A DNA stretch of 38,305 nucleotides, taken from Gammaproteobacteria bacterium (GTDB taxonomy: Bacteria; Pseudomonadota; Gammaproteobacteria; DRLM01). Positions 6,065 to 38,305 of this stretch are shown here, piece after piece. Below the pieces are notes generated by a model. That model saw only the letters and a program-made list of their open reading frames with translations, made no database searches and had not been told where the DNA came from. The stretch is from positions 13,902 through 52,206 of the forward strand of contig JAHFRV010000020.1 of NCBI GenBank assembly GCA_023266095.1, given 5' to 3'. Positions within the stretch are counted from its first letter, which is position 1; every line of letters starts with the position of its first letter. The position numbers and the translations under genes are program-made.

Positions 6065-7432
6065 TTATACCGCCGCTTCCTTGAACAGGCCGGGTTCCAG
6101 ATGGTGACGGCGCAACAATTTATAGAATTCCGTGCGGTTGCGTTTGGCCAGCCGTGCGGCTTGGGTGACGCTGCCCTGAGTGATTTGCAGCAGTTGCACC
6201 AGATAATCGCGCTCGAAACGATTGCGGGCGTCAGCGAAGGAGAGGATGTCTCCTGATTCGTTGCGCAGCGCTTTATTCACCAAGGAAGCGGGCACGATCG
6301 GCGTGGTGGAAAGGGCCACCACTTGCTCGACGACGTTGAGCAATTGCCGCACATTGCCCGGCCAGGGCGCGCCTATCATCAATTCCAAAGCTTCCGGCGA
6401 GAAGCCTTCTATCTCGCGGCTATTCTTCGCGGCGATGCGGGTCAGAAAATAGCTGGCGAGCAGGGGGATGTCTTCGCGGCGCTGTGCCAGCGTCGGAATT
6501 TCCAGGGCGACGACGTTGAGCCGATAATAAAGATCTTCGCGGAAATGGCCCTGGCTCATCGCCTGTTCGAGATTACGGTGGGTCGCGGAAATGACCCGCA
6601 CATCCACCTTGATCACCTCGGTGGCGCCGACCGGCCGCACCTCGCGGTCCTGCAGCACCCGCAATAATTTCGCTTGCAGGGAAAGCGGCATGTCGCCGAT
6701 TTCGTCTAGGAATAAACTGCCTTTATCGGCAGCCTGAAACAGCCCTTTGTGATTACGGGTCGCGCCGGTGAACGAGCCTTTATTATGGCCGAACAATTCC
6801 GATTCGAGCAGAGGTTCGGGGATGGCGCTGCAATTGATGGCGACGAAAGACTGGTCGTGACGCGGGCTGGCCTTGTGAATGGCGCGGGCCAGCAGGTCTT
6901 TGCCGGTACCGCTCTCGCCGTGGATGAAGACGCTGATATCGCTTTCCGCGACCAGCCGCGCCTGGTGCAGCACGTCCTCCATCATCGGATTGCGGGTGAT
7001 GATTTCGCGGCGCCAGCCGGTGTCGCCGGTGGTTTCGATGTCGGCGATCTGGCTGTTGCCGCTGATGTCGATGGCCTTATTGATTTGATCGAGCAGCGTC
7101 TTGCTTTCGAAAGGTTTGGTAAGAAAACCGAACACGCCCCGTTTGGTGGCGTTCACCGCGTCGGGGATGGTGCCGTGCGCGGTGAGGATGATTACCGGGA
7201 TCATGGGGTAACGTTGATGGATGGCCTCGAACACCGCCATGCCGTCCATGCCGCTCATGCGCAGATCGGTCACCACCACCTGGGGCCGGTGGATGGAAAA
7301 CTGGGCGAGGGCGCGTTCGCCGCTGTCCATGGGAATGACGTCATATCCAGCGGTATTGAGCCGGATGGAGATGAGGCGCAACAGGCCGGGGTCATCGTCG
7401 ATCAGTAATACTTTTCCTTTGGTGCGGTTCAT
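6065..7432 (-). CDS. glrR: Sigma-54-dependent response regulator GlrR (QseF/YfhA)
   Basis: 455 residues in three domains. The receiver domain has acidic residues near 12-14 and the phosphoacceptor D56 (VVVTDLRMSGMDG). The AAA+ sigma-54 activation domain has Walker A GESGTGKD (172-179), the sigma-54-contact loop GSFTGA (219-224, a serine variant of GAFTGA), and FLDEIGDMPLSLQAKLLRVLQ. A Fis-type helix-turn-helix lies near the C-terminus (SVTQAARLAKRNRTEFYKLLRRH). In enterobacteria GlrR activates sigma-54 promoters such as glmY in response to envelope state. The ATG overlaps the qseG TGA, and the order glrK-qseG-glrR matches the enteric operon. Targets in this organism are unknown. Confidence 0.95.
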   Translation of the reverse strand: MNRTKGKVLLIDDDPGLLRLISIRLNTAGYDVIPMDSGERALAQFSIHRPQVVVTDLRMSGMDGMAVFEAIHQRYPMIPVIILTAHGTIPDAVNATKRGVFGFLTKPFESKTLLDQINKAIDISGNSQIADIETTGDTGWRREIITRNPMMEDVLHQARLVAESDISVFIHGESGTGKDLLARAIHKASPRHDQSFVAINCSAIPEPLLESELFGHNKGSFTGATRNHKGLFQAADKGSLFLDEIGDMPLSLQAKLLRVLQDREVRPVGATEVIKVDVRVISATHRNLEQAMSQGHFREDLYYRLNVVALEIPTLAQRREDIPLLASYFLTRIAAKNSREIEGFSPEALELMIGAPWPGNVRQLLNVVEQVVALSTTPIVPASLVNKALRNESGDILSFADARNRFERDYLVQLLQITQGSVTQAARLAKRNRTEFYKLLRRHHLEPGLFKEAAV

Positions 7433-24083: not shown

Positions 24084-27000
24084 ATGAGTAATCAATTTTT
24101 CTCGGACATTACATCTCACCTTTTACCCATGGAGTGGCAGAGTGAGTTGATGGAGTCTGAGGCATGTAGAAACCAGTTGATTCGCATTCCAACGGGATTT
24201 GGCAAAACGCTCGGTGTTTTGTCTGCTTGGTTATGGCATCGAGCGCATCGTAAGGATGAACGCTGGCCCCGTCGTCTGGTGTGGTGTTTGCCGATGCGGG
24301 TATTGGTCGAACAAACAGAAAGCGAAGTTCGCCTGGCGCTATCTAGAGCCGGGCTGTTATGGGATGGCAACTCTTCCCATCAGGGTAAGGTTGGTGTGCA
24401 TGTGCTGATGGGTGGAGCAAATGTTGGCGAATGGCATCTCTATCCGGAGGAGTGCGCCGTGCTTATTGGCACGCAGGACATGTTGCTTTCACGGGCCATG
24501 AATCGGGGGTACGCATCACCGCGCGCACGTTGGCCGATGGAGTTTGGTCTTCTCAATCACGATGCCCTTTGGGTAATGGATGAAGTGCAGCTTATGGATG
24601 TAGGGCTTGCCACTGCCACCCAATTACAGGCATTCCGCGAAGAAGAGCGGGGTAAAGGCCGCAGGCCGTGTATCAGCTGGTGGATGAGCGCCACCCTGCA
24701 ACGTAACTGGCTGGAAAAAAGCCCCGATACCGTCGATCTGGCAGCGGCATTGCCGCAACTCTCAATTAGGCCTGAGCAGCGCAGAGGTGCTTTGTGGGAT
24801 GACGTGCAGAAGCCCTGTTGCATTGAGCCGATTACCAAAGAAAAAGAACTGGCAACGCGAATTGCTGAGGAGCATCTCAGTTCAGGGCGTGGCGATAGGG
24901 GGCCAACGCTGGTGGTTGTAAACCGTGTCGAACGGGCGGTGGAGATTTTCGAGCTACTGCGCAAGGACAAGTCACTCAAGGAGAGCGACATCCGGCTGGT
25001 GCATAGTCGTTTCCGACCGCATGAACGCCAGCAGTGGCGCGAAGAGTTTCTGAACCGCGCGGCCAGCGCACCTGGCACGGATCGCATCATCGTATCCACA
25101 CAGGTGGTCGAGGCGGGTGTCGATATCTCTGCGGGCGTGCTGTTTACCGATCTTGCTCCATGGGCCAGTCTGGTGCAGCGCTTTGGCCGTTGCGCGCGAT
25201 GGGGTGGTGAAGCCAATGTGTTTGTGATCGATTTTTCTCCCAAGGATGACAAGGCGGCGGCACCCTATTCAAAAGATGAGATTGATGCCGCTCGCGAGGC
25301 GCTGGCGCAGCTTGATAATGTCTCGCCTCTGCGTCTTGAAATGTTTGAAGAGCGCCATCCTGAACTGCTGGCGCGGCTCTACCCCTTCGAACCGAAGAGC
25401 CTGCTGCTGCGCCACGAACTGGATGAGCTGTTCGATACCACGCCCGATCTCACAGGGGCAGACATCGACATCAGCCGCTTCATCCGTTCGGGCGAAGAGC
25501 GCGACCTCTCGGTGTTCTGGGCAGCCGTGCCTGAAAAGCAGATGCCCGATGCAAAGCTGCGTCCATCGCGTGAAGAGTTGTGCGCAGTGCCTTTCCTCAA
25601 GGCGCGCGACTGGTTGTGCGGTAAGGAGACATCCACAGCCAAAGCGCCTCGGCTCAAGCAAGGTATGAGTGCTTGGGTGTGGGATTGGCTCGATGGCGCG
25701 TGGCGCACTGCCGAGCGGCGTGATCTCTATCCGGGTCAGACTGTGCTGGTTGAAAAGGGGTGTGGCGGTTACGATCCAGAGAAGGGGTGGGCTCCCGAGA
25801 GTAAAGCAAAATTCGAGATTCATCCCACTACGAACATCGCACCTGACGAGCAGGCCGACGCCAGCCAGGACGACGAATCACTGAGCGCCTATCCCTGGAA
25901 AACCATCGCCACCCACGGACGCGAGACGGGCGCACTGGCGCGCGCCATCGCCTCGGCATTGGATGCGGAGTTATCGAACCTGTTCGACCTGGCGGGGCGC
26001 TGGCACGATGCGGGCAAGGCTTTCCCTGCCTTCCAGAACTCCATTACTGGGTCTGAGCGTCCGGGCCGTCACGATCTGGCCAAGGCGCCGAAAGGCGCAT
26101 GGCTCACCGGGCGGGCGCTTTACCCGATGAGTGAGCGTGAGCGCCGCCCCGGATTCCGCCATGAACTCATCAGCACACTGGCGCTCTTCTCCGTGCTGCA
26201 ACGTCATCAACCGGACCATTCCGCGCTGCTGGGACCATGGCGTGATCTGCTTCAGAAAATGGGCGCGAATATTTCTGCGTCGCCACAAACAGAACGGCCA
26301 GCCACTCCACTGGAGCAGGAGGTTCTCGCGCTCGATGCCGAGCGCTTCAACCTGCTGGCCTATCTGGTGTGCAGCCACCACGGCAAACTGCGCGTAGCGT
26401 GGCACGCCGCGCCGGCGGATCAGGAGGCCAGGAGTCATTTGCCGCGCCTGCGCGGTGTGCAGGAGGGCGATGCCGTGCCATCAGTGCAGTTGTGCGATGC
26501 AAGCGGAGCGCCGCAAGCGCTGCCTGGGTTCACGGCTGGACTCGGCTTGGCAGCCGCAGGATTGGGTACAACCTTTGGCGCAGGCTGGACGGAGCGAGTG
26601 TTGGGATTGATGCGTCAGCATGGCCCTTTCGCGCTGGCCTGGATGGAGGCATTGCTGCGCGCCGCAGATCAGCGCGCCTCCCGGGATATGAAGATTGCGG
26701 ACCCACTATTGGAGGCCGATAATGGTGAACATGGACTGGAAGCAGACAATAGAGAACTGGCGCAAGCTGCCCCCCGAGGAGCAGAAGCGCATCCGCCTGA
26801 GCCGGATTCCCCGCAAGGTGGCCCGCAGCATGGCCTTCGAGGGGGAGCCGGTGGATCAGCGGATGCTGGAAGCCGAACACAAGCGCCGCACCACGCCACC
26901 CGCTATTTAGAAACCACACTCGGCATCCTCAGTTATGCCGAACTCGCCCCTCACCTCTCGCTACGTGTTCAAGCGCTCGAAGACGAAATCGTCGAAGGCG

Positions 27001-27476
27001 CTTTCTCCAATCTCTCCATCGATGAGGCACTGATCCTCGATCTCCATCACCGGATTTGCGGCGACCTCGTCCCCGCCTTCGCCGGGCGCTGGCGGCGGGT
27101 CAATGTCCGCGTCAGCGATCATGAAGCGCCGTCCTATCCGCAGGTGCCCCTCCTCATGCGAGACTATTGCCGCGATCTCCATGCGCGTATCACCGCACTT
27201 GACGATATTCCCGATGAGCGCCTGCTGGAACTCCTCGCCTTCGCCGAAGGACGACTGCTTTGGATACACCCCTTCGAGGATTTCAATGGCCGCATCACCC
27301 GAGTACTCCTGGCCGAGATACTGCAACGGCTCGGCCTGCCCGCCATCGACCCCACGCCAGAACCCGGCGAAGAGACCCAGCGTTATCTCCAGGCGCTCAG
27401 GGCCGCCGACAACGCCAACCTTCAACCGTTGATCGAATACTGGCGCACCCGTTTTGAAAAGGAGGGAAACGCATGA
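24084..27476 (+). CDS. cas3: Type I-G Cas3 (helicase-HD) fused to a C-terminal Fic domain
   Basis: 1130 codons, starting at an ATG with AAGGGGG upstream. The SF2 helicase domain comes first: Walker A PTGFGKT (36-42), DEVQ box (166-169), MSAT (201-204), STQVVEAGVDIS (338-349) and QRFGRCAR (365-372). The HD nuclease domain follows: RWHDAGK (639-645), H693, and CSHHGK (763-768). This helicase-then-HD order is the mark of type I-G (I-U) Cas3, which degrades DNA recognised by Cascade. From about residue 939 the frame continues into a Fic domain with IHPFEDFNGRITR (1061-1073), the HPFx(D/E)GNGR AMP-transfer motif with F in place of the first G. Residues 875-938 are a P/G/A-rich linker that overlaps a separate ORF in the +1 frame. 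No ATG, GTG or TTG in this frame could start a separate Fic protein before residue 1025. Stop overlaps csx17 start (ATGA). Confidence 0.9.
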   Translation: MSNQFFSDITSHLLPMEWQSELMESEACRNQLIRIPTGFGKTLGVLSAWLWHRAHRKDERWPRRLVWCLPMRVLVEQTESEVRLALSRAGLLWDGNSSHQGKVGVHVLMGGANVGEWHLYPEECAVLIGTQDMLLSRAMNRGYASPRARWPMEFGLLNHDALWVMDEVQLMDVGLATATQLQAFREEERGKGRRPCISWWMSATLQRNWLEKSPDTVDLAAALPQLSIRPEQRRGALWDDVQKPCCIEPITKEKELATRIAEEHLSSGRGDRGPTLVVVNRVERAVEIFELLRKDKSLKESDIRLVHSRFRPHERQQWREEFLNRAASAPGTDRIIVSTQVVEAGVDISAGVLFTDLAPWASLVQRFGRCARWGGEANVFVIDFSPKDDKAAAPYSKDEIDAAREALAQLDNVSPLRLEMFEERHPELLARLYPFEPKSLLLRHELDELFDTTPDLTGADIDISRFIRSGEERDLSVFWAAVPEKQMPDAKLRPSREELCAVPFLKARDWLCGKETSTAKAPRLKQGMSAWVWDWLDGAWRTAERRDLYPGQTVLVEKGCGGYDPEKGWAPESKAKFEIHPTTNIAPDEQADASQDDESLSAYPWKTIATHGRETGALARAIASALDAELSNLFDLAGRWHDAGKAFPAFQNSITGSERPGRHDLAKAPKGAWLTGRALYPMSERERRPGFRHELISTLALFSVLQRHQPDHSALLGPWRDLLQKMGANISASPQTERPATPLEQEVLALDAERFNLLAYLVCSHHGKLRVAWHAAPADQEARSHLPRLRGVQEGDAVPSVQLCDASGAPQALPGFTAGLGLAAAGLGTTFGAGWTERVLGLMRQHGPFALAWMEALLRAADQRASRDMKIADPLLEADNGEHGLEADNRELAQAAPRGAEAHPPEPDSPQGGPQHGLRGGAGGSADAGSRTQAPHHATRYLETTLGILSYAELAPHLSLRVQALEDEIVEGAFSNLSIDEALILDLHHRICGDLVPAFAGRWRRVNVRVSDHEAPSYPQVPLLMRDYCRDLHARITALDDIPDERLLELLAFAEGRLLWIHPFEDFNGRITRVLLAEILQRLGLPAIDPTPEPGEETQRYLQALRAADNANLQPLIEYWRTRFEKEGNA
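26722..26910 (+). CDS. Putative Fic antitoxin nested in cas3-fic (+1 frame)
   Basis: 62 residues (MVNMDWKQTIENWRKLPPEE at the start), read one base out of phase with cas3. A strong Shine-Dalgarno GGAGG (26711-26715) lies 6 bases before the ATG. The peptide is helical and basic and contains SMAFEG (36-41), which fits the Fic inhibitory motif (S/T)xxxE(G/N) with E40 as the expected inhibitory glutamate, as in class I antitoxins such as VbhA. It ends at TAG just where the Fic homology begins. By contrast, the cas3 frame over the same stretch is a featureless linker. The position directly before the Fic domain and the motif support an antitoxin; binding and activity are inferred. It is not found by a rule that forbids fully nested genes. 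Confidence 0.72.
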   Translation: MVNMDWKQTIENWRKLPPEEQKRIRLSRIPRKVARSMAFEGEPVDQRMLEAEHKRRTTPPAI

Positions 27477-29692
27477 TCCTGCACAAACTCGAAGGCTGCG
27501 CCCCCACACCGCTGGCGCACTACCTCAAGGCCTTGGGCATTCTCCGTCTCGTATCGGAACAGGCCGACCCCGAGGCGCGCGGCTGGTGGGAAGGCGAGCG
27601 TTTCCTACTGGCGACTCACCTTGATGAGGATGAGTTGCTGAGGTTTTTTCTGGAGCGGTATGAGCCGACGCCATTGGTGGCGCCATGGAATAAAGGTTCA
27701 GGTTTTTTCTATGCCGATGATCCTGGCCTTTCTCCGATTGAGAGTTCCACTGCCCCACGATTTGAAAAACTGCGACAGGGCATTGTTGCGAGCCGCTCTC
27801 TGCTGGGGGAGTTGTCTGTTGCGGATCAGACAGTGCGTTCAATTAAAGGTGAGGCAAAACAGAATGGGATGACAAAGGCACACAAAGACGCCTTGAAGAA
27901 AGATGACGCATACAAGAAACGCCTTGCTGAAGCTGAAAAGTGTTTCAAGGTGTTCAAGGCAGATTTCATTCCCCGTCTCAGATTGTCATGGCGTGGACCA
28001 CACCGGGAATGGATGGATGCTGCAATGGTGCTGGATGATGAAGGCAGTCCACAGTTTCCGGCGTTGTTGGGTACTGGCGGCAATGATGGCCGCCTTGATT
28101 TCACCAATAACTACTTTCAGAAGATCAACGAGGTTTTTGATGTAGGCGATAACGAAGGCAAATCAAAGAGCGACGGCTACGGATGGTTTTCAGATGCGCT
28201 CTTTGGCAGAAGTATCAACACCTATCAGCGCGGTGCGGTGGGGCAGTACGCACCAGGCGCGGCTGGAGGCGCTAATAGCACTGTGGGCGCAGATGGAGGT
28301 AGTTTGCTCAATCCAGTTGATTTCTTGTTGATGCTCGAAGGGACTGTCTTGTTCACTGCACATGCTACACGCCGTTTCGGTTCAACACACTCATCACGAG
28401 CGGCGGCCCCCTTTGCGGTCAGCGCGCAAAGTGCAGGCTATGCCAGCGCCGGTGATAGCGACGAGAGCGCGCGTGGCGAACAGTGGATGCCGTTATGGTC
28501 GCAGCCCACCACGCTTGCCGAGTTGCAGCGCCTGCTGGCAGAGGGGCGGGCGCAGATCGGAGCCAAGGCGGCGCATGAGCCACTCGACTTGGCGCGAGCT
28601 GTGGCAAATTTAGGTACGGCCCGTGGTATCACGGCATTCCAGCGTTTCGGTTACATCGAACGCAATGGCCAATCCAATCTGGCGGTTCCACTGGGCCGCT
28701 TTCATGTGCCCGATCATGTCTCGCCGCGTCTTGCCTGTCTCGATGATCTTGATGCCTGGCTGGTCCGGTTGCGCCGTGCTGCTCGTGACAAGGTGGCGAC
28801 GGGACGGTTGCGGATGGCGGAGCGGCGGTTATCAGAGTCATTGTTTGCCGTGGCGCAGCATCCCGATGAGGCGGCGCGCTGGCAGGCGGTGGTGCTGGCG
28901 CTGGCCGATGTCGAGATGATACTTCTGAATAGCGGCAAGGTGCGTTGCGGTCCCATCCCACGTTTACGTCCTGAGTGGGCGAGCGTTGCTGATGATGGTT
29001 CACCCGAATGGCGTCTGGCAGTCTCTCTTGCCTTGCAGTCAGCGACCTTGCGACGGGATGACAGCGCCCCGATTGATCCGGTGCGACGCCACTGGGTGCC
29101 CGCCAAAAATCAGGAGACCGCCGCCGTCATGCAAGGTCGCCGTGGCGTGGATGACGCCGTTGCGCTGGTGGAACGGCGACTCATCGAGGCGGCGCAGAAA
29201 GGGGGGCGCCGTCTGCCGCTGGTGGCCGCGAGAAAGGCGAGTGCATCGCCTGCCGATCTCGCGACGCTGCTCGCGGGCGAAGTCGACCTCGACCGCACAC
29301 TGAACTTCGCTCGTGTATTGATGGCAGTGAATGGTCGCGCCTGGGCGTTACGTCCGCAACTGCTGCAACAACCCGATGCTGCACGCTGGCCCGATGAGGG
29401 CTGGCTGGCGATTCGCCTCGCCATGTTGCCCTGGCCCCTGCCCGATCGACGGCGCATTGGCGTAGACCCCGCCATTCTGCGCCGTCTTGAAAGCGGTGAT
29501 GCGGGCATGGCCATCGAACTCGCCCTGCGCCGGCTGCGTCCGGCGGGCATTCAACCCGCTGTCAGGGTAGGCACCGTTTCACCGCACACCGCCAGACTTT
29601 GGGCGGCAGCATTGGCATTTCCAATCAATCGAACAATGGCGGAACAGTTTGTTCACCGTCTTGATGCACATTCACTGGCACTGACCAATTAA
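27473..29692 (+). CDS. csx17: Csx17 (Cas8g), large subunit of type I-G Cascade
   Basis: 739 residues. The N-terminal signature LEGCAPTPLAHYLKALGILR, then ARGWWEG and PWNKGSGFF, is that of Csx17, the Cas8-like large subunit of type I-G (I-U) systems. Other recognisable parts are RLSWRGPHREWMDAAMVLD, LGTGGNDGRLDFTNNYFQ and LFTAHATRRFGS. It should help recognise the PAM and hold the crRNA complex. Its ATG overlaps the stop of cas3-fic by 4 bases, so it is translationally coupled, and csb1 begins 16 bp downstream. Confidence 0.94.
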   Translation: MILHKLEGCAPTPLAHYLKALGILRLVSEQADPEARGWWEGERFLLATHLDEDELLRFFLERYEPTPLVAPWNKGSGFFYADDPGLSPIESSTAPRFEKLRQGIVASRSLLGELSVADQTVRSIKGEAKQNGMTKAHKDALKKDDAYKKRLAEAEKCFKVFKADFIPRLRLSWRGPHREWMDAAMVLDDEGSPQFPALLGTGGNDGRLDFTNNYFQKINEVFDVGDNEGKSKSDGYGWFSDALFGRSINTYQRGAVGQYAPGAAGGANSTVGADGGSLLNPVDFLLMLEGTVLFTAHATRRFGSTHSSRAAAPFAVSAQSAGYASAGDSDESARGEQWMPLWSQPTTLAELQRLLAEGRAQIGAKAAHEPLDLARAVANLGTARGITAFQRFGYIERNGQSNLAVPLGRFHVPDHVSPRLACLDDLDAWLVRLRRAARDKVATGRLRMAERRLSESLFAVAQHPDEAARWQAVVLALADVEMILLNSGKVRCGPIPRLRPEWASVADDGSPEWRLAVSLALQSATLRRDDSAPIDPVRRHWVPAKNQETAAVMQGRRGVDDAVALVERRLIEAAQKGGRRLPLVAARKASASPADLATLLAGEVDLDRTLNFARVLMAVNGRAWALRPQLLQQPDAARWPDEGWLAIRLAMLPWPLPDRRRIGVDPAILRRLESGDAGMAIELALRRLRPAGIQPAVRVGTVSPHTARLWAAALAFPINRTMAEQFVHRLDAHSLALTN

Positions 29693-29708: not shown

Positions 29709-30734
29709 ATGACTATCAATCTTTCTGCACTCGCCAATACTCACCGCCTGTTGTTTGCGATTCCTCTCGAACCCGTGTTGGGAAAACGCTTCCAGCCCAC
29801 CGGCTTTCCCAGTCTCGGGGCGGCCACCTTCCAAACCAGTGAAGGCCAGAGCCTGCTGGTGGAGAGTGCGCAGAGCATGGCCAACCGGCTTGAAATGACG
29901 CTGTGGGATGATGCAAAACAGGATGTTAAAGATGAGCTCAATGGCATCTCTCATGTAAAGGTTTTGCGTCAAGGCAAATTCTTAACAGATACGATTCTTG
30001 AATCGCACCGCATCAATAGTCCCTACATCCTGGAGGGGGCTGACAAAAAATTCTATAACGAGTTGAAGGAGTCACTGGGAGTGCTTGCCGAGGGGCCAAT
30101 TGACCGGCGTGTGTTGGCGGATGCTTTGCTGAAATATGATGTTGGCTCACTGTTGCACGGCGTGTTCATCGCCAAGAAAGAGCTTGCCGGTGGCCGATTG
30201 CGCGTAGCCCGAGCCCTCTCTGCTTTCATTGAGGCTGATGGCGTGCGTGTCGCGGCATCCGGTGGTGTCAAGAACGACCATGTTAATCCGTCGGGTGACA
30301 CCAAGAGTGGCTTCGGCAATGTGCCATTCGCCCGTGATGAATTCACGGCGGATAACATCACTCTCTACGTCAATCTCGATCTGGCACAGATTCGCGGTTA
30401 TGGTTTGGGTGCGGATGTGGAGCGTCTTCTGATTTTGTTGGCGCTGTACAAACTGCGCACACTGGTGGATGGCGGTATGCGCCTGCGTACTGCTTGTGAT
30501 TTTAAACTTGAAGATGATTCTGGAAACATCAGTGCCATGCAGCCCAAGGAATTTACGTTGCCAAGCTTTAGTGATATGACCACTGATTTAAAGGCCGCAA
30601 TCCAATCGTGCAAGGAGAGGATGGCTGTCACCGAAGTCACTTTTAACGATGAATTGAAGAAGGGTAAAGAGGATAAGGGCAACGGCTCCGATGAGTCTGA
30701 GACAGGGGACGACGAGGAAGGCGCGGAGGCGTAA
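29709..30734 (+). CDS. csb1: Csb1 (GSU0053 family), Cas7 of type I-G
   Basis: 341 residues after an AAGGAG ribosome binding site. FQPTGFPSLGAATF (28-41), LLVESAQSMANRLE (49-62) and the later ASGGVKNDHVNPSGDTKSGFGNVPFARDEF block (about 187-218) identify Csb1/GSU0053, a RAMP-fold protein that forms the Cas7 backbone along the crRNA spacer. The last 30 residues are acidic and charged (GSDESETGDDEEGAEA). It lies 2 bp before csb2 and shares the operon. Confidence 0.93.
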   Translation: MTINLSALANTHRLLFAIPLEPVLGKRFQPTGFPSLGAATFQTSEGQSLLVESAQSMANRLEMTLWDDAKQDVKDELNGISHVKVLRQGKFLTDTILESHRINSPYILEGADKKFYNELKESLGVLAEGPIDRRVLADALLKYDVGSLLHGVFIAKKELAGGRLRVARALSAFIEADGVRVAASGGVKNDHVNPSGDTKSGFGNVPFARDEFTADNITLYVNLDLAQIRGYGLGADVERLLILLALYKLRTLVDGGMRLRTACDFKLEDDSGNISAMQPKEFTLPSFSDMTTDLKAAIQSCKERMAVTEVTFNDELKKGKEDKGNGSDESETGDDEEGAEA

Positions 30735-30736
30735 TC

Positions 30737-32341
30737 ATGCCAACACTCATTCTGCAATTCCCCGCCGGGCGTTATCACGCCACGCCGTGGGGGCATCACG
30801 TCAACGAAGGCATGATTGAATGGCCGCCTTCGCCTTGGCGTTTGCTGCGTGGTCTTCTCGCAACTGGCTACGCCACCATGCACTGGCCTGCCGCTGGAGC
30901 GCCGCCAGAGGCGAGATCCTTGATTGAAAAGCTGGCCGCCGTGCTGCCTTGCTATGTGTTACCCAAGGCTGTTGGTACGCACAGCCGCCATTACATGCCG
31001 ATGGCGCGTTTCAAGAATGGCCGCGAGGAGACCTGTCTGGTGTTCGACACCTGGGCGCGAGTCTCTGGCGAACTGGCGGTGACATGGGATGTTCCGCTAT
31101 CGCCGGATGAGCAGGTGCTGCTTGAGCAGCTTGCCGAACGCATGGGCTATCTCGGACGTTCAGAGAGCTGGATCAATGCGCATGTCGCTACGCCGAGTGA
31201 GGCGGTGGTGCAAGGCGAACGTTGCTGGCCTGAAGGCAGAGAAGCTCCGCTCGAATCAGGCTGGGAACAGGTGCCCATGTATGCGCCCATCGCCGCCACA
31301 GCGTATGTCGAGTGGCGCGACAAAGCCGTCGCCAAGGTGATGGAGGATATGCCTCAACCAGAGCCAGGCAAGAAACCCACCGCCAAAATGAAGAAGGAGT
31401 TGGAAAAAGCCACAAAGCCTTACCCGCTCGATCTGTTGGCGTGTCTACAGATGCAGACATCAGAACTTCAGGGGTTTGGCTGGAATCAACCACCGGGTAG
31501 CCAGCGTGTGTTCTATTGGCGTAAGGCGAATGCAATCGAAGTGGGTGTACCGAAAATTCATCGTGTGCGTGAAGTTACTCCTGTTGAAGCCATGTTGCTG
31601 GCGATGGCGACGCAAAGTGGCAGTGAACACGCCCTACCTAGCGTAACCCGCACCCTTTCCCAAGCTGAAATGTTGCATCGCCAACTGGTAGGCAGTCTGC
31701 GGGGGCGTCACAACATCGTGCTTACTGGTTGTGATGAGCAAAGAAAGCCGCTGACGTTGCCGCATCAACATGCGCACATCCTCCCGCTGGACATGAATGG
31801 CGATGGACATCTCGACCATATTCTGGTCTGGGCGCCGATGGGGTTGGATGGTGAGGCGCAGTCAGCTATTCGCAATGCACGCCGAACATATACCAAAGGT
31901 GGAGTAGGGGTGTTACGCCTTGCCCTTGCGGGTGCCGCCAGCCTGGATGAGTTGTTGGTCTTGTCTGGAGAGTATGGCGCAGGCTTGCGCAAGGTTTTGC
32001 ATAAAGGCACCGAATGGATCAGCGCAACTCCCTTTGTTCCACCTCGCTATGTGAAGAAGAATGGGGCGCATACGCTTGAGGGGCAGGTGAGAGCAGAGTT
32101 GGCATCCCGCAATCTGCCTGATGTGATTGATGTGCAGGTGCTTGATCCTCATGAGCATGATTTAGCGCGGCGCCAACGCCATTTCATTCGCACGCGCCGA
32201 TTTGGGCCGGCTCCGCCGATCGACTGCGGATTTGCGCTACAGTTGAGATTTGCCGAGCCTGTGCAAGGACCTATTTGTCTGGGTTACGGTAGCCACTTCG
32301 GTCTTGGAATGTTCCGCACCATTCCGGATCAACAAGCATGA
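30737..32341 (+). CDS. csb2: Csb2 (GSU0054 family), Cas5-Cas6 fusion of type I-G
   Basis: 534 residues. The N-terminal part (FPAGRYHATPWGHHVNEGMI, PPSPWRLLRGL) is the Cas5-like half that caps the crRNA 5' end. The C-terminal half is Cas6-like and ends with the glycine-rich RAMP loop LGYGSHFGLGMFR, so this subunit should also cut pre-crRNA at the repeat hairpin. Length and order (csx17-csb1-csb2) fit type I-G. A GGAGG at the end of csb1 serves as ribosome binding site. Its TGA overlaps the start of the next small gene. Confidence 0.92.
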   Translation: MPTLILQFPAGRYHATPWGHHVNEGMIEWPPSPWRLLRGLLATGYATMHWPAAGAPPEARSLIEKLAAVLPCYVLPKAVGTHSRHYMPMARFKNGREETCLVFDTWARVSGELAVTWDVPLSPDEQVLLEQLAERMGYLGRSESWINAHVATPSEAVVQGERCWPEGREAPLESGWEQVPMYAPIAATAYVEWRDKAVAKVMEDMPQPEPGKKPTAKMKKELEKATKPYPLDLLACLQMQTSELQGFGWNQPPGSQRVFYWRKANAIEVGVPKIHRVREVTPVEAMLLAMATQSGSEHALPSVTRTLSQAEMLHRQLVGSLRGRHNIVLTGCDEQRKPLTLPHQHAHILPLDMNGDGHLDHILVWAPMGLDGEAQSAIRNARRTYTKGGVGVLRLALAGAASLDELLVLSGEYGAGLRKVLHKGTEWISATPFVPPRYVKKNGAHTLEGQVRAELASRNLPDVIDVQVLDPHEHDLARRQRHFIRTRRFGPAPPIDCGFALQLRFAEPVQGPICLGYGSHFGLGMFRTIPDQQA

Positions 32342-32622
32342 ATAACACCACTACCGACCTCCACCCCAACGACCGCGTTTTCCACCCAAAATTCGGTTTC
32401 GGCACTATTCTCGAACGTGATGAGAATGGGCGTTTGTCAGTGCGGTTTGACCACCATGGCACCAAGTGGTTGGTGTTGAAGTATGCGCAGTCGTGCTGGG
32501 TGACGGCGGAGGAAGAGGCACGCACAGCACTTCCAGAAATTGTTATCGATGCATGCGGCAGTTTGCGGCAACGCTGGATATGGGCGCTTTGTTCGTCTCG
32601 CATGTCCCCGCCTTTGAGATAA
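32338..32622 (+). CDS. Small DUF3553/Tudor-like protein in the cas operon
   Basis: 94 residues. Residues about 9-50 (DRVFHPKFGFGTILERDENG, then SVRFDHHGTKWLVLKYA) match the beta-barrel of the DUF3553/UvrD C-terminal Tudor-like domain (VxHPxFGxGxV...VxFxxxGxKxL). In UvrD/PcrA this domain contacts RNA polymerase or repair partners. The C-terminal 40 residues are not conserved in a way I recognise. The gene fills the whole space between csb2 (ATGA overlap) and cas4-cas1 (5-bp gap), which supports it being real and co-translated. It is not a standard component of type I-G. Confidence 0.72.
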   Translation: MNNTTTDLHPNDRVFHPKFGFGTILERDENGRLSVRFDHHGTKWLVLKYAQSCWVTAEEEARTALPEIVIDACGSLRQRWIWALCSSRMSPPLR

Positions 32623-32627
32623 ACGAC

Positions 32628-34340
32628 ATGTCGGAAGAGGTCCAAAAAGAACTCCCTCTTCCCTTCCCGGAGCTGTCCGGGGATCTGCCGTTGCTGCCGG
32701 CCCGTATGATCAACGAATACGAGTATTGTCCGCGCCTCGCGTATCTCGAATGGGTGCAGGGCGAGTGGGCGGAGTCCGCCGATACGGTCGAGGGACGCTA
32801 TAGCCACCGCCGGGTTGATAAGCCGTCCGGTGAGTTACCGCCGCCGGAAAATGCCGATGATGAAGAGCGCATACACGTGCGTTCGATTACGCTTTCGTCC
32901 AGCCGCCTTGGTCTCGTCGCGAAATTGGATTTGATCGAGGGTGAGGGCAACGTCGTCACGCCCGTGGAATATAAACGCGGCAAGCGCCCTCATGTGGCGA
33001 GGGGCGCCTATACACCCGAATTGGTGCAGGTGTGTGTGCAGGCCATGTTGCTCGAGGAGCATGGCTATGTTTGTGAGGAAGGCGCCATCTATTTCGTTCA
33101 GTCCAAGGAACGGGTGCGAGTCATTTTTGACGAGGAGTTACGGGCGCAGACATTGTCGGCCGTGAATGGGCTGCGGTTGCTCGCTGCCGGTGGCAAGATG
33201 CCGCCGCCGTTGGAGGATAGCCCCAAATGTCCGCGCTGTTCCTTGGTGGGAATATGTCTGCCGGATGAGGTGAATTTCTTGCGGCGTGCCGGAGTGAATC
33301 CGCGGCCGCTGGCGGTGGCGCACGATACGGCGTTGCCGCTTTATGTACAGGCCAATCAGGCGCGCGTCTCCAAGAAAGGGGAGGTCCTGGAGGTGTCGGT
33401 GGACGACAAACTGGCCGCGTCGGCGCGCTTGGCGGAGGTGTCGCAAGTGGTGGTGATGGGGAATGTCTATATCACCACGCCGTGTTTGCAGGAGTTGATG
33501 AGCCGCGATATTCCTGTGACGTGGCATTCCTATGGGGGTTGGTTCTTTGGCCATACCATGGGGACAGGACACAAGAACGTCGAGCTGCGGACGGTGCAAT
33601 ATAAGGCGAGCTTTGATAACTCCATTTGCCTGCGCTTGGCCAAGGGGCTGGTCAAGGCCAAGATTCAGAACGGCAGAACCTTGTTGCGCCGCAATTGGCG
33701 CGGGGATGACAAGGCTGACGATCTGATGGAAGAATTCAAGCGCGATATTGATCAAGTAGGCCGCGTGAAAGATTTGCAGATGCTGCTCGGCGTGGAAGGC
33801 AATGCAGCCGCGCGTTATTTCGGCGCTTTTCCACAGATCATTAAGCAAGATGCCGATGCCAAGAGCTTTTCATTCGACTTTATGCAGCGTAACCGTCGCC
33901 CGCCGACGGACCCGGTTAACGCCATGCTGTCTTTTTCCTACACGTTGCTGGTGCGCACGTGGACCGTGACGCTAAGCGCGGTTGGCTTCGATCCCTACAA
34001 AGGGTTTTATCATCAACCCAGATACGGGCGGCCTGCATTGGCGCTCGATATGATGGAGCCTTTTAGGCCACTGATTGCGGATTCTACCGTGATCACGGCC
34101 ATCAATAATGGGGAAGTGCGCCCCAGTGATTTCATCAAGGCCGGTGGCGGCGTTGCCCTTACCAGCGACGGGCGAAAGCGCTTTATCGCGGCTTTCGAGC
34201 GGCGGTTGAGCCATGAAGTGACTCATCCTTTGTTCGGCTATAAGTTGAGCTATCGCCGTCTCATCGAGTTGCAGGCGCGGCTGTTGGGGCGTTACCTGCT
34301 GGGCGATTTGGATGATTATCCCAACTTCACCACCCGCTGA
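32628..34340 (+). CDS. cas4-cas1: Cas4-Cas1 fusion, adaptation nuclease and integrase
   Basis: 570 residues from the ATG at 32628; the frame opens further upstream, but that part overlaps the small gene. Cas4 comes first: Cys34 in NEYEYCPRLAYLEW, the RecB motif VEYKRGK, and CPRCSLVGIC completing the four-cysteine Fe-S cluster. Cas1 starts near residue 230: the active-site E lies in LGVEGNAAARYF, the H in FYHQPRYGRPALALDMMEPF, and the acidic partner just beyond. Cas4-Cas1 fusions are typical of type I-G and trim prespacers and select PAMs before integration. TGATG overlap with cas2. Confidence 0.95.
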   Translation: MSEEVQKELPLPFPELSGDLPLLPARMINEYEYCPRLAYLEWVQGEWAESADTVEGRYSHRRVDKPSGELPPPENADDEERIHVRSITLSSSRLGLVAKLDLIEGEGNVVTPVEYKRGKRPHVARGAYTPELVQVCVQAMLLEEHGYVCEEGAIYFVQSKERVRVIFDEELRAQTLSAVNGLRLLAAGGKMPPPLEDSPKCPRCSLVGICLPDEVNFLRRAGVNPRPLAVAHDTALPLYVQANQARVSKKGEVLEVSVDDKLAASARLAEVSQVVVMGNVYITTPCLQELMSRDIPVTWHSYGGWFFGHTMGTGHKNVELRTVQYKASFDNSICLRLAKGLVKAKIQNGRTLLRRNWRGDDKADDLMEEFKRDIDQVGRVKDLQMLLGVEGNAAARYFGAFPQIIKQDADAKSFSFDFMQRNRRPPTDPVNAMLSFSYTLLVRTWTVTLSAVGFDPYKGFYHQPRYGRPALALDMMEPFRPLIADSTVITAINNGEVRPSDFIKAGGGVALTSDGRKRFIAAFERRLSHEVTHPLFGYKLSYRRLIELQARLLGRYLLGDLDDYPNFTTR

Positions 34341-34636
34341 TGCCGATGGACGAACACATTTATATAGTGGCCTACGACATTGCCGACCAGAAGCGTTGGC
34401 GTGCCGTGTTCAAGCTTATGCAGGGGTATGGAGAGTGGTTGCAGCTTTCCCTATTCCAGTGCCGGTTAAATCGGCGTCGACATGCCGAGCTGCTTGTCAC
34501 CGTGGCCGAGATTATTCATCATGACCACGATCATGTGTTAATCATGGACGTGGGCCCCACCGAATCGGTCACGCCCAAAGTGGTCAGTCTGGGTAAGACG
34601 TTTAAACCGGTCGAGCGCGAGCCGGTTATTGTGTAG
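34340..34636 (+). CDS. cas2: CRISPR-associated protein Cas2
   Basis: 98 residues with the ferredoxin-like Cas2 fold: YIVAYDIADQKRWRAVFKLM with the first-strand Asp, then GEWLQLSLFQCRL and HVLIMDVGPTES. It dimerises and holds Cas1 in the integrase complex. It starts at an ATG that shares a base with the cas4-cas1 TGA; a second ATG lies two codons on. AACCGG/CCGGTT (34605-34627) near the 3' end can form a hairpin 9 bases before a T9 run, a possible weak terminator. Confidence 0.95.
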   Translation: MPMDEHIYIVAYDIADQKRWRAVFKLMQGYGEWLQLSLFQCRLNRRRHAELLVTVAEIIHHDHDHVLIMDVGPTESVTPKVVSLGKTFKPVEREPVIV

Positions 34637-34843
34637 TTTTTTTTTGCCTATGGGGCGCGAGCGGTGTGATGTTGAAGAAAAACCCGGGGAGCGCTCGCGA
34701 TGGGTAAGCTCTTTAAAAATTTGGAAAAATGTAACTGGGATTGGTAAGATGGCGGCCTTACAGGGAGAACTATGGTTGAAAATGAACTACCTCTCGCATG
34801 TGAAGCGGATATTCCTTGCCGCATATGGCCCCCAAGGGGGGCC
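34637..34843 (+). promoter_or_regulatory. CRISPR leader
   Basis: 207 bp between cas2 and the first repeat, opening with T9 (34637-34645). A promoter-like pair lies at 34721-34750: TTGGAA, 18-base spacer, TAAGAT with an upstream TGG (extended -10), so transcription would begin about 85 bp before the first repeat. It ends with a 17-base inverted repeat GGCCCCC-AAG-GGGGGCC (34827-34843) that touches the first repeat. Array polarity (leader on the cas2 side) follows from the repeat 3' end ATTGAAG(G/C) and from the base-change pattern. Confidence 0.8.
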
Positions 34844-37800
34844 GACATCCTCAGCATTACGCTGAGGCCTCATTGAAGGATACAGACCGCGGCGGTCGCG
34901 GCACCCGCCGCCGCCGACATCCTCAGCATTACGCTGAGGCCTCATTGAAGGTCATCGGCTCGCGGCGCGGGCTTCACGCTGAGTTATGACATCCTCAGCA
35001 TTACGCTGAGGCCTCATTGAAGGTGTTGGCCGAGGTGGGCAAGACAAGTGTGGTGATCCAGACATCCTCAGCATTACGCTGAGGCCTCATTGAAGGAGGA
35101 TGTCCATCAGGCTGACGAAGGTGGCGGCGAGACGACATCCTCAGCATTACGCTGAGGCCTCATTGAAGGAGGATTGCAACCGCCCGGCCACGGAGGCGGC
35201 GCCAGGACATCCTCAGCATTACGCTGAGGCCTCATTGAAGGGTGCTTCGCGCGCACTACCAGCCGGTGTTTGATTTCGACATCCTCAGCATTACGCTGAG
35301 GCCTCATTGAAGGCGTTCAAGGTCGGCTTGTTTGTCGGCCTTGATCTGACATCCTCAGCATTACGCTGAGGCCTCATTGAAGGTGGTGGGCGTTCCCATT
35401 GCTCACAGGCATTGATGCGACATCCTCAGCATTACGCTGAGGCCTCATTGAAGGATCGCGCTGGATGATCTGGCCCACGTGCTCCACCCGCGACATCCTC
35501 AGCATTACGCTGAGGCCTCATTGAAGGCCATTTTGTGCCGAACAATCCGCCGCCGGTGATCGAGGACATCCTCAGCATTACGCTGAGGCCTCATTGAAGG
35601 AGCACCGTGCGCGCGGATCGCGAAGGGGTGCTGCCGACATCCTCAGCATTACGCTGAGGCCTCATTGAAGGCCGGGTTCGACGCGTCAGCGGCGACAACC
35701 TCCTTCCCGACATCCTCAGCATTACGCTGAGGCCTCATTGAAGGGGTTCGCGTGGATCATGCTGTTCACGGTCTGCGACCGCGACATCCTCAGCATTACG
35801 CTGAGGCCTCATTGAAGGGATGTGATGTTTCGCCATGCCGATGGTGCGCTGAGCCAGACATCCTCAGCATTACGCTGAGGCCTCATTGAAGGGTCGCGCT
35901 TGCTTTGTCGTGCGCAACACCATAAGGCGGACATCCTCAGCATTACGCTGAGGCCTCATTGAAGGCGAAAGTTTCTTTGGGTGTTCGGCGGTTGGCTTGC
36001 TGACATCCTCAGCATTACGCTGAGGCCTCATTGAAGGTTGAGTCGTTGGGTGGTCATGTTGATCATGGTCTGTGACATCCTCAGCATTACGCTGAGGCCT
36101 CATTGAAGGCAAGCTGGTTCTGTCCGATACTTCGACTACCACGCTAGACATCCTCAGCATTACGCTGAGGCCTCATTGAAGGTGCAGTAGCAACAGCTCG
36201 AAGGTCCCGCCGCTGGTCGACATCCTCAGCATTACGCTGAGGCCTCATTGAAGGGACGATCTCAAGCGGGCAAGTAGACGCGGCGCCCCTTGACATCCTC
36301 AGCATTACGCTGAGGCCTCATTGAAGGTCGGGCAAAGCGCGAAGGCCGGCGCGCGCTGACATGGACATCCTCAGCATTACGCTGAGGCCTCATTGAAGGG
36401 TGGTTGGAAGCTCTCTTAGCGACTCTGCTCAAGCCGACATCCTCAGCATTACGCTGAGGCCTCATTGAAGGATTCCGTCGATGTAGTTGTCGCACAGGAT
36501 GCGCACGACATCCTCAGCATTACGCTGAGGCCTCATTGAAGGGGTACGGCGGCGCGATCGCTGCCAGCCGGACGAGGCTGGACATCCTCAGCATTACGCT
36601 GAGGCCTCATTGAAGGTTCTCGACCGCGAGCCGATAGTGCTTGTCGCGCACAGACATCCTCAGCATTACGCTGAGGCCTCATTGAAGGTTTTCGCCTTCG
36701 ATCCAATGTACCAATTCGGCGCACGACATCCTCAGCATTACGCTGAGGCCTCATTGAAGGTGCGGAGGCGGTGCCGAGCTAGATACTCGCAGAAGCTGAC
36801 ATCCTCAGCATTACGCTGAGGCCTCATTGAAGGTGAGGATTGCAAGTATTTTGCTTCTCGCGGTATGTGGACATCCTCAGCATTACGCTGAGGCCTCATT
36901 GAAGGTCGAACAGGCCGAACAGGATGGACTTCGCGGACGCGACATCCTCAGCATTACGCTGAGGCCTCATTGAAGGAGCGTAAGCCCCGTATCTCGCAGC
37001 CTCTTGGCCTCGACATCCTCAGCATTACGCTGAGGCCTCATTGAAGGAAAAATGATTTGCAATGCCACGCTGACAGGCACGGGGACATCCTCAGCATTAC
37101 GCTGAGGCCTCATTGAAGGCTGGGAGCGCGCCGCATGATTTCTCACAACCGTGTAGACATCCTCAGCATTACGCTGAGGCCTCATTGAAGGACGCGCGCG
37201 TCGAGGAAGCATTGAAAGTTATCGCGACATCCTCAGCATTACGCTGAGGCCTCATTGAAGCGTAAAATCGCTGAGGGCAGTCTGTAATTCCTGAGCGGAC
37301 ATCCTCAGCATTACGCTGAGGCCTCATTGAAGCGATATGGCTCAGCGCGCCATCAGCATGGCGAAACATCGACATCCTCAGCATTACGCTGAGGCCTCAT
37401 TGAAGCGTCGCGGAACTTGGGGTTGCAAGGGGCGGCAAGCTCGACATCCTCAGCATTACGCTGAGGCCTCATTGAAGCCGCGAGGTATCGGTATTTGTCG
37501 GCCCACTCCTGCGTGGACATCCTCAGCATTACGCTGAGGCCTCATTGAAGCAGCACCGGCAACAAAATCTACCTGTCCAGTATCGGCGGACATCCTCAGC
37601 ATTACGCTGAGGCCTCATTGAAGCAGCGTTGGGCCACTATCACAAACCAAGTGTCGCGCTGACATCCTCAGCATTACGCTGAGGCCTCATTGAAGCCACG
37701 GTTTTAATGTCATACCGGCCGTTGGCCGCGTAGACATCCTCAGCATTACGCTGAGGCCTCATTGAAGCGGCGGTACGACAGTGCCTGGCTGAGGATCACC

Positions 37801-38131
37801 AGCAGGACATCCTCAGCATTACGCTGAGGCCTCATTGAAGCGTGTACTGGCTTGGATGGGACGACGCCACGTGGATAGACATCCTCAGCATTACGCTGAG
37901 GCCTCATTGAAGCCTCGCCATGAGCCGGCACGCACACGGTAAGCACAGGACATCCTCAGCATTACGCTGAGGCCTCATTGAAGCGAAGCGGTAGCGATTC
38001 GGTACGCCGCCGGTCATCCACTGACATCCTCAGCATTACGCTGAGGCCTCATTGAAGCAATCAATGACGTTTTGTCATAGCCTTGCTTAAACACCGACAT
38101 CCTCAGCATTACGCTGAGGCCTCATTGAAGC
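34844..38131 (+). CRISPR. CRISPR array, 46 repeats of 36 bp and 45 spacers
   Basis: The repeat is GACAT, stem CCTCAGC, loop ATTAC, stem GCTGAGG, then CCTCATTGAAG and a last base G or C. I counted 46 copies, all otherwise identical, including the last one. Repeats 1-33 end in G; repeats 34-46 end in C (first C at 37261). Spacers are 34-38 bp, mostly 36-37. The 7-bp hairpin would be the crRNA processing site, leaving an 8-base tag ATTGAAG(G/C) on the spacer 5' side, as for Cas6 products. Many spacers read as open coding sequence. Spacers 14 (35819-35856) and 35 (37334-37370) are related in opposite orientation. The array belongs to the type I-G operon just upstream. Confidence 0.98.
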
Positions 38132-38305
38132 TATGCTGACGATAAAACTGCGCTGATAATCGGAACCGGCAGTTAAAGGGGTCCGACCCGAATGGCACTT
38201 ACTTAAGCGCAAGGGGTTGAATTACAAGTTAGAAGAGACCGGAACCATGGTAGGCTGCAAATCGCCAAACCCACACCCTACCAACAGGAACCGGTCTTCA
38301 TGCAG
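38132..38305 (+). other. Region after the array; possible start of an insertion sequence
   Basis: GGGTC-C-GACCC (38179-38189) is a short palindrome. A larger broken inverted repeat follows: AGACCGG (38236-38242) with CCGGTCT (38291-38297), and TGGTAGG (38248-38254) with CCTACCA (38277-38283). An ATG at 38300, directly after the second arm, runs off the window edge. A structured leader just before a start codon is common in insertion sequences, but no transposase sequence is visible, so the call is weak. Confidence 0.3.

Follow-up and report, generated by a model that had tools for sequence, protein, structure and literature searches.

Type I-G CRISPR-Cas systems (formerly type I-U), such as those of Thioalkalivibrio sulfidiphilus and Bifidobacterium lactis, consist of Cas3, Cas8g/Csx17, Csb1, Csb2, a Cas4-Cas1 fusion, and Cas2. 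A TTN PAM was reported for one I-G system (PMC9638904) and a TAT PAM for another (PMC12915315). The B. lactis system has 36-nt repeats and carries repeated spacers within its arrays, and spacers recurring at distant array positions have been reported mainly in type I-E and in one I-G system (PMC12915315). In the type I-E system of Escherichia coli, the last repeat base is supplied by the PAM of each spacer, and a first spacer steers follow-up spacers, all onto its own strand (PMC3338789).

The window examined here, the whole stretch of 38,305 nt, carries a CRISPR array that is preceded by what profile matches predict to be a complete type I-G gene set, resembling the described systems in every component named above (Table 1). 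The cas genes are intact and tightly packed from cas3 to cas2; there is no separate cas11 and no space for an additional long cas ORF. Unlike the Cas3 of those I-G systems, the Cas3 encoded here has a C-terminal Fic domain (PF02661; 45.5 bits, cut-off 24), which lies in the region of aa 979–1119 and contains the motif HPFEDFNGR. Continuous frames in other genomes of the class align with this protein, from residue 16 to 1127 in one genome (G202) and from approximately residue 751 to 1109–1128 in three others (G095, G226, and G248), and the Cas3-Fic fusion therefore looks recurrent in the class. A text search of a paper library found no description of such a fusion; the single paper returned deals, by its title and abstract, with archaeal anti-defence genes.

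Table 1. Features of the type I-G locus and of the spacers discussed (positions in the window)
Feature	Position	Strand	Description
cas3g	24084..27476	+	Helicase and HD nuclease, C-terminal Fic domain (aa 979–1080)
cas8g/csx17	27473..29692	+	TIGR04113, 606 bits (cut-off 150)
csb1/cas7g	29709..30734	+	TIGR02570, above cut-off
csb2 (cas5-cas6 fusion)	30737..32341	+	TIGR02165, above cut-off
cas4g-cas1g fusion	32466..34340	+	Spacer acquisition; NF049935, 838 bits (cut-off 560)
cas2	34340..34636	+	TIGR01573
Presumed leader	34637..34843	+	Between cas2 and the first repeat; orientation from repeat hairpin and handle
CRISPR array	34844..38131	+	46 repeats of 36 nt (GACATCCTCAGCATTACGCTGAGGCCTCATTGAAG plus G or C), 45 spacers of 34–38 nt
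Spacer 3	35024..35060	+	Perfect match to host C39-peptidase ABC exporter gene (G000:C94:11526-11562)
Spacer 4	35097..35133	+	Perfect match to host chromosomal gene (G000:C36:36950-36986, minus strand)
Spacer 14	35819..35856	+	38 nt; part in common with spacer 35, 35824-35856
Spacer 21	36328..36363	+	Terminase small subunit (Nu1) gene; peptide MSARAGLRALP identical in viral contig L124
Repeat 34	37226..37261	+	First repeat with C as 36th base
Spacer 35	37334..37370	-	37 nt; part in common with spacer 14, 37338-37370, minus strand, 33 nt, 2 mismatches
Spacer 37	37479..37515	+	Terminase large subunit (GpA) gene; peptide TQEWADKYRYLA identical in viral contig L124
Spacer 44	37985..38022	+	Mu-type transposase gene; peptide WMTGGVPNRYRF; 2–3 mismatches in closest matches; flank TTT or CTT

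The array fills the last 3.3 kb of the window, and the contig ends 174 nt past the last repeat (38132–38305); no further repeat copies were found elsewhere in the genome. The first 35 nt of the repeat are identical in all 46 copies, and only the 36th base varies. The repeat is predicted to fold into a 7-bp hairpin (CCTCAGC-ATTAC-GCTGAGG), after which come CCTC and the 8-nt handle ATTGAAGG. This is the layout of the Thioalkalivibrio I-G repeat, with 36 nt, a hairpin, 4 nt, and an 8-nt handle (PMC9638904), and cleavage would accordingly be expected 4 nt after the hairpin. Because the layout matches that of the published repeat, the direction of the array can be taken as fixed, with the putative leader adjoining cas2 and spacer 1 as the youngest spacer.

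The last base of the repeat, with which the crRNA handle also ends, is G in repeats 1–33 and C in repeats 34–46, with a single switch between the two blocks. New repeats are copied from the repeat at the leader end, so one mutation there explains the two blocks. This pattern is unlike the PAM-derived base of E. coli I-E, which is set spacer by spacer (PMC3338789). The switch also provides a relative date for the spacers on either side of it: spacer 35 was captured before it, in the older part of the array, and spacer 14 after it, in the younger part.

These two spacers are closely related. Bases 6–38 of spacer 14 and bases 1–33 of the reverse complement of spacer 35 align without gaps and are identical at 31 of 33 positions, the mismatches being a C/T and a T/C 6 nt apart; jointly, the spacers span 42 nt, GATGTGATGTTTCGCCATGCYGATGGYGCGCTGAGCCATATC. 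The alignment agrees exactly with a preliminary description of this DNA, which had reported a 33-base overlap with two differences between the two spacers. In an all-against-all comparison of the spacers, the pair scored 27, by far the highest value, and the runner-up pair scored 12. In principle, such a likeness could arise by chance between unrelated spacers or from an assembly artefact, a reading with nothing in its favor beyond this general possibility. The best pairs of 12 shuffled arrays reached scores of only 9–12, which refutes chance, and both spacers are part of a regular repeat-spacer pattern within a single contig, which speaks against an artefact; we regard this reading as practically negligible. 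Since the score of 27 stands against a background of at most 12, the comparison supports the derivation of spacers 14 and 35 from homologous DNA, present in two variants and sampled from opposite strands. The earlier proposal that two variants had been captured on opposite strands, far apart in the array, was likewise borne out, and the spacers lie on either side of the repeat-end switch.

The pair probably originated in two separate captures from related forms of one mobile element, diverged at silent sites. According to this explanation, Cas4-Cas1/Cas2 would have captured an almost identical 33-bp segment of a mobile element at two different times. The first capture would have given spacer 35, from one strand, which is the older and lies beside C-ending repeats; the later would have given spacer 14, from the other strand, which is the younger and lies beside G-ending repeats. 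The source elements would be close relatives with two differences in this segment, both at silent codon positions of what is most likely the frame [F/L]DVMFRHADGALSHI, and the crRNAs of both spacers would guide the effector and Cas3 to one site on the element. Separate acquisitions from diverged elements would thereby be favored over a single element followed by later mutation. Flipped integration of a single prespacer was also considered; assuming a TTN PAM, it is unlikely, since each spacer discloses the other's flank and these flanks read TGT and ATA.

Alternatively, the second capture may have been primed by the first: spacer 35 would have recognized a newer, mutated element, Cas3 fragments would have been fed to Cas4-Cas1/Cas2, and spacer 14 would have been acquired at the same location but from the opposite strand. 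Both mismatches (positions 16 and 22 of spacer 35) are outside the seed and would probably have left recognition intact. Near-exact overlap is also somewhat rarer than uniform sampling predicts; for an element of 40 kb, approximately 0.03–0.3 such pairs would be expected, the value varying with the number of element types that share the array. However, spacers 14 and 35 lie on opposite strands, in contrast to the same-strand follow-up spacers of E. coli I-E (PMC3338789), the spacers adjoining spacer 14 are not known to match the same element, and no evidence of priming in type I-G was found. We therefore consider priming unlikely; if it did occur, the pair would be a natural record of type I-G primed adaptation acting at the very same site rather than in its vicinity.

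The contiguous array was used as a single query to place other spacers, and three of them matched phage genes (Table 1). Spacers 21 and 37 both match a small viral contig, IMGVR_UViG_3300005940_000113 (L124), at positions 6129–6164 and 6440–6476, respectively, 311 nt apart. All nine base differences between spacer 21 and this contig are silent, as are all three for spacer 37. Spacer 44 matches Mu-like phages, for example Chromohalobacter phage YPCBV-1, and many viral contigs; its peptide is identical in two of the matching records (L057 and L100), and the codon stretch for WMTGGVPNRYRF is highly conserved in the Mu-type transposase genes of dozens of phages. Judging from these matches, the array does sample conserved phage coding genes that have silently diverged variants, which is what the preliminary description had proposed for spacers 14 and 35.

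Both differences between spacers 14 and 35 are silent in the forward frame, DVMFRHADGALSHI. The translation given earlier for this frame is right except at its end, where spacer 14 stops at CA and encodes the last histidine only in part, the full CAT being present only in spacer 35. The differences had been described as the silent changes GCC/GCT (Ala) and GGT/GGC (Gly), and so they are, but they are silent in a second frame as well, the reverse frame IWLSAPSAWRNIT, which is likewise open. In addition, 29% of random two-transition pairs in the segment were computed to leave the protein unchanged in one or more open frames. The silence of the two differences is therefore weak proof of the frame, because a second frame is also silent and because silence arises this often by chance. 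Codon usage, evaluated with host and phage genes, was approximately +8 bits for DVMFRHADGALSHI and approximately -2.5 to -5 for IWLSAPSAWRNIT, which disfavored the latter as the coding frame. A further reverse frame, DMAQR[T/A]I[G/S]MAKHHI, in which both differences alter the protein, also reached approximately +8 bits and tied with DVMFRHADGALSHI.

This last frame underlies another reading, in which the other strand is coding, possibly for an N-terminal portion of a portal protein of the lambda family (PF05136), and the variants differ in two amino acids. Besides its codon usage, which is on par with that of DVMFRHADGALSHI, the frame resembles the portal segment DYARRFVGMVKTHV of one phage record (L149), with 6–7 of 14 residues identical, and when 209 spacer frames were compared with a profile of 19 portal sequences, it ranked first (12.1, compared with 9.1 for the runner-up). 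G and S are both found at the variable position in real portals. In phages with lambda-family portals, the portal gene follows shortly after the terminase genes, and a portal target would thus be near the genes matched by spacers 21 and 37. On the other hand, the family was picked post hoc from a large scan in which other matches, probably due to chance, scored 39–40 compared with 41. The conserved N of the NVVG motif is not retained, the portal residues expected on the flanks (N before and V after) would give no TTN PAM on either side, and the reading requires two non-silent changes and no silent one. A portal target is improbable on this evidence.

Purifying selection is usual for phage genes. 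As spacers 21, 37, and 44 match phage genes with variants that are almost all silent, the forward frame DVMFRHADGALSHI is probably the coding frame of the target. By this analogy, it is plausible and even likely that the target is a coding gene in this frame under purifying selection, as had been suggested, and it would be a gene of a phage (or plasmid). The analogy lends support to that suggestion, and the 29% chance level of silence and the codon-usage tie with the DMAQR frame weigh against it.

The protospacer was searched for in several collections. Exact and wobble patterns of the shared segment found no protospacer in IMG/VR viral contigs, and wobble patterns found none in 84,980 GTDB species genomes. 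With the 42-mer as blastn query, only chance-level matches were obtained in 50,697 phage (INPHARED) and 72,556 plasmid (PLSDB) records. The host genome contained only the array's own copies of the segment. Scans of 144 relatives and of 369 genomes sampled from the class yielded no protospacer, nor was a target present in sets of 50, 17, and 42 records comprising Mu-like and terminase-related phages and viral contigs. Four relaxed viral matches (L109–L112) and one in Limnohabitans (L113) were attributed to chance, having either the wrong residues or a frame opposite to an apparent ABC ATPase gene. A further resemblance (L193) lay on the strand opposite to a phage integrase gene and did not preserve the H and Y of the integrase in the alignment. 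The check proposed in the preliminary description, to obtain the protospacer and its PAMs from viral and metagenomic data, was thus carried out and the target was not found; the absence of the protospacer from the databases neither supports nor disproves the reading of the pair as two variants.

The flanks of other spacers, which bear on the PAM, are mixed. Those of spacer 44 in related phages are mostly TTT or CTT. For spacer 21, the flank is TTG in L129 and CTA in L124, and for spacer 37 it is CTC in L124, where it corresponds to a GAG codon (GAA would give TTC). Two of the array's youngest spacers, 3 and 4, match the host's own genome perfectly; the gene matched by spacer 4 is conserved in the genus and has no Pfam match. 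The neighboring spacers 2 and 5 gave no self match within 3 mismatches. The flanks of the self matches are TGG for spacer 3 and TGC for spacer 4, and such non-TTN flanks may explain why the two spacers are tolerated. The Cas3-Fic fusion and the two perfect self-matching spacers are more unusual than the pair formed by spacers 14 and 35.

The pair itself is known, ordinary CRISPR immunity. As in the recurring-spacer arrays described previously (PMC12915315), two spacers of one array would be directed against the same site; unlike in those arrays, the copies here are on opposite strands, are shifted by 4–5 nt, and differ at two bases. One array would thus have sampled a single short segment of an invader on more than one occasion, and the repeat's last base marks the passage of time from one capture to the other. 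Should the target be identified, both of its flanks are predicted by the pair, so that the PAM of this I-G system could be read directly and primed re-capture could be tested.
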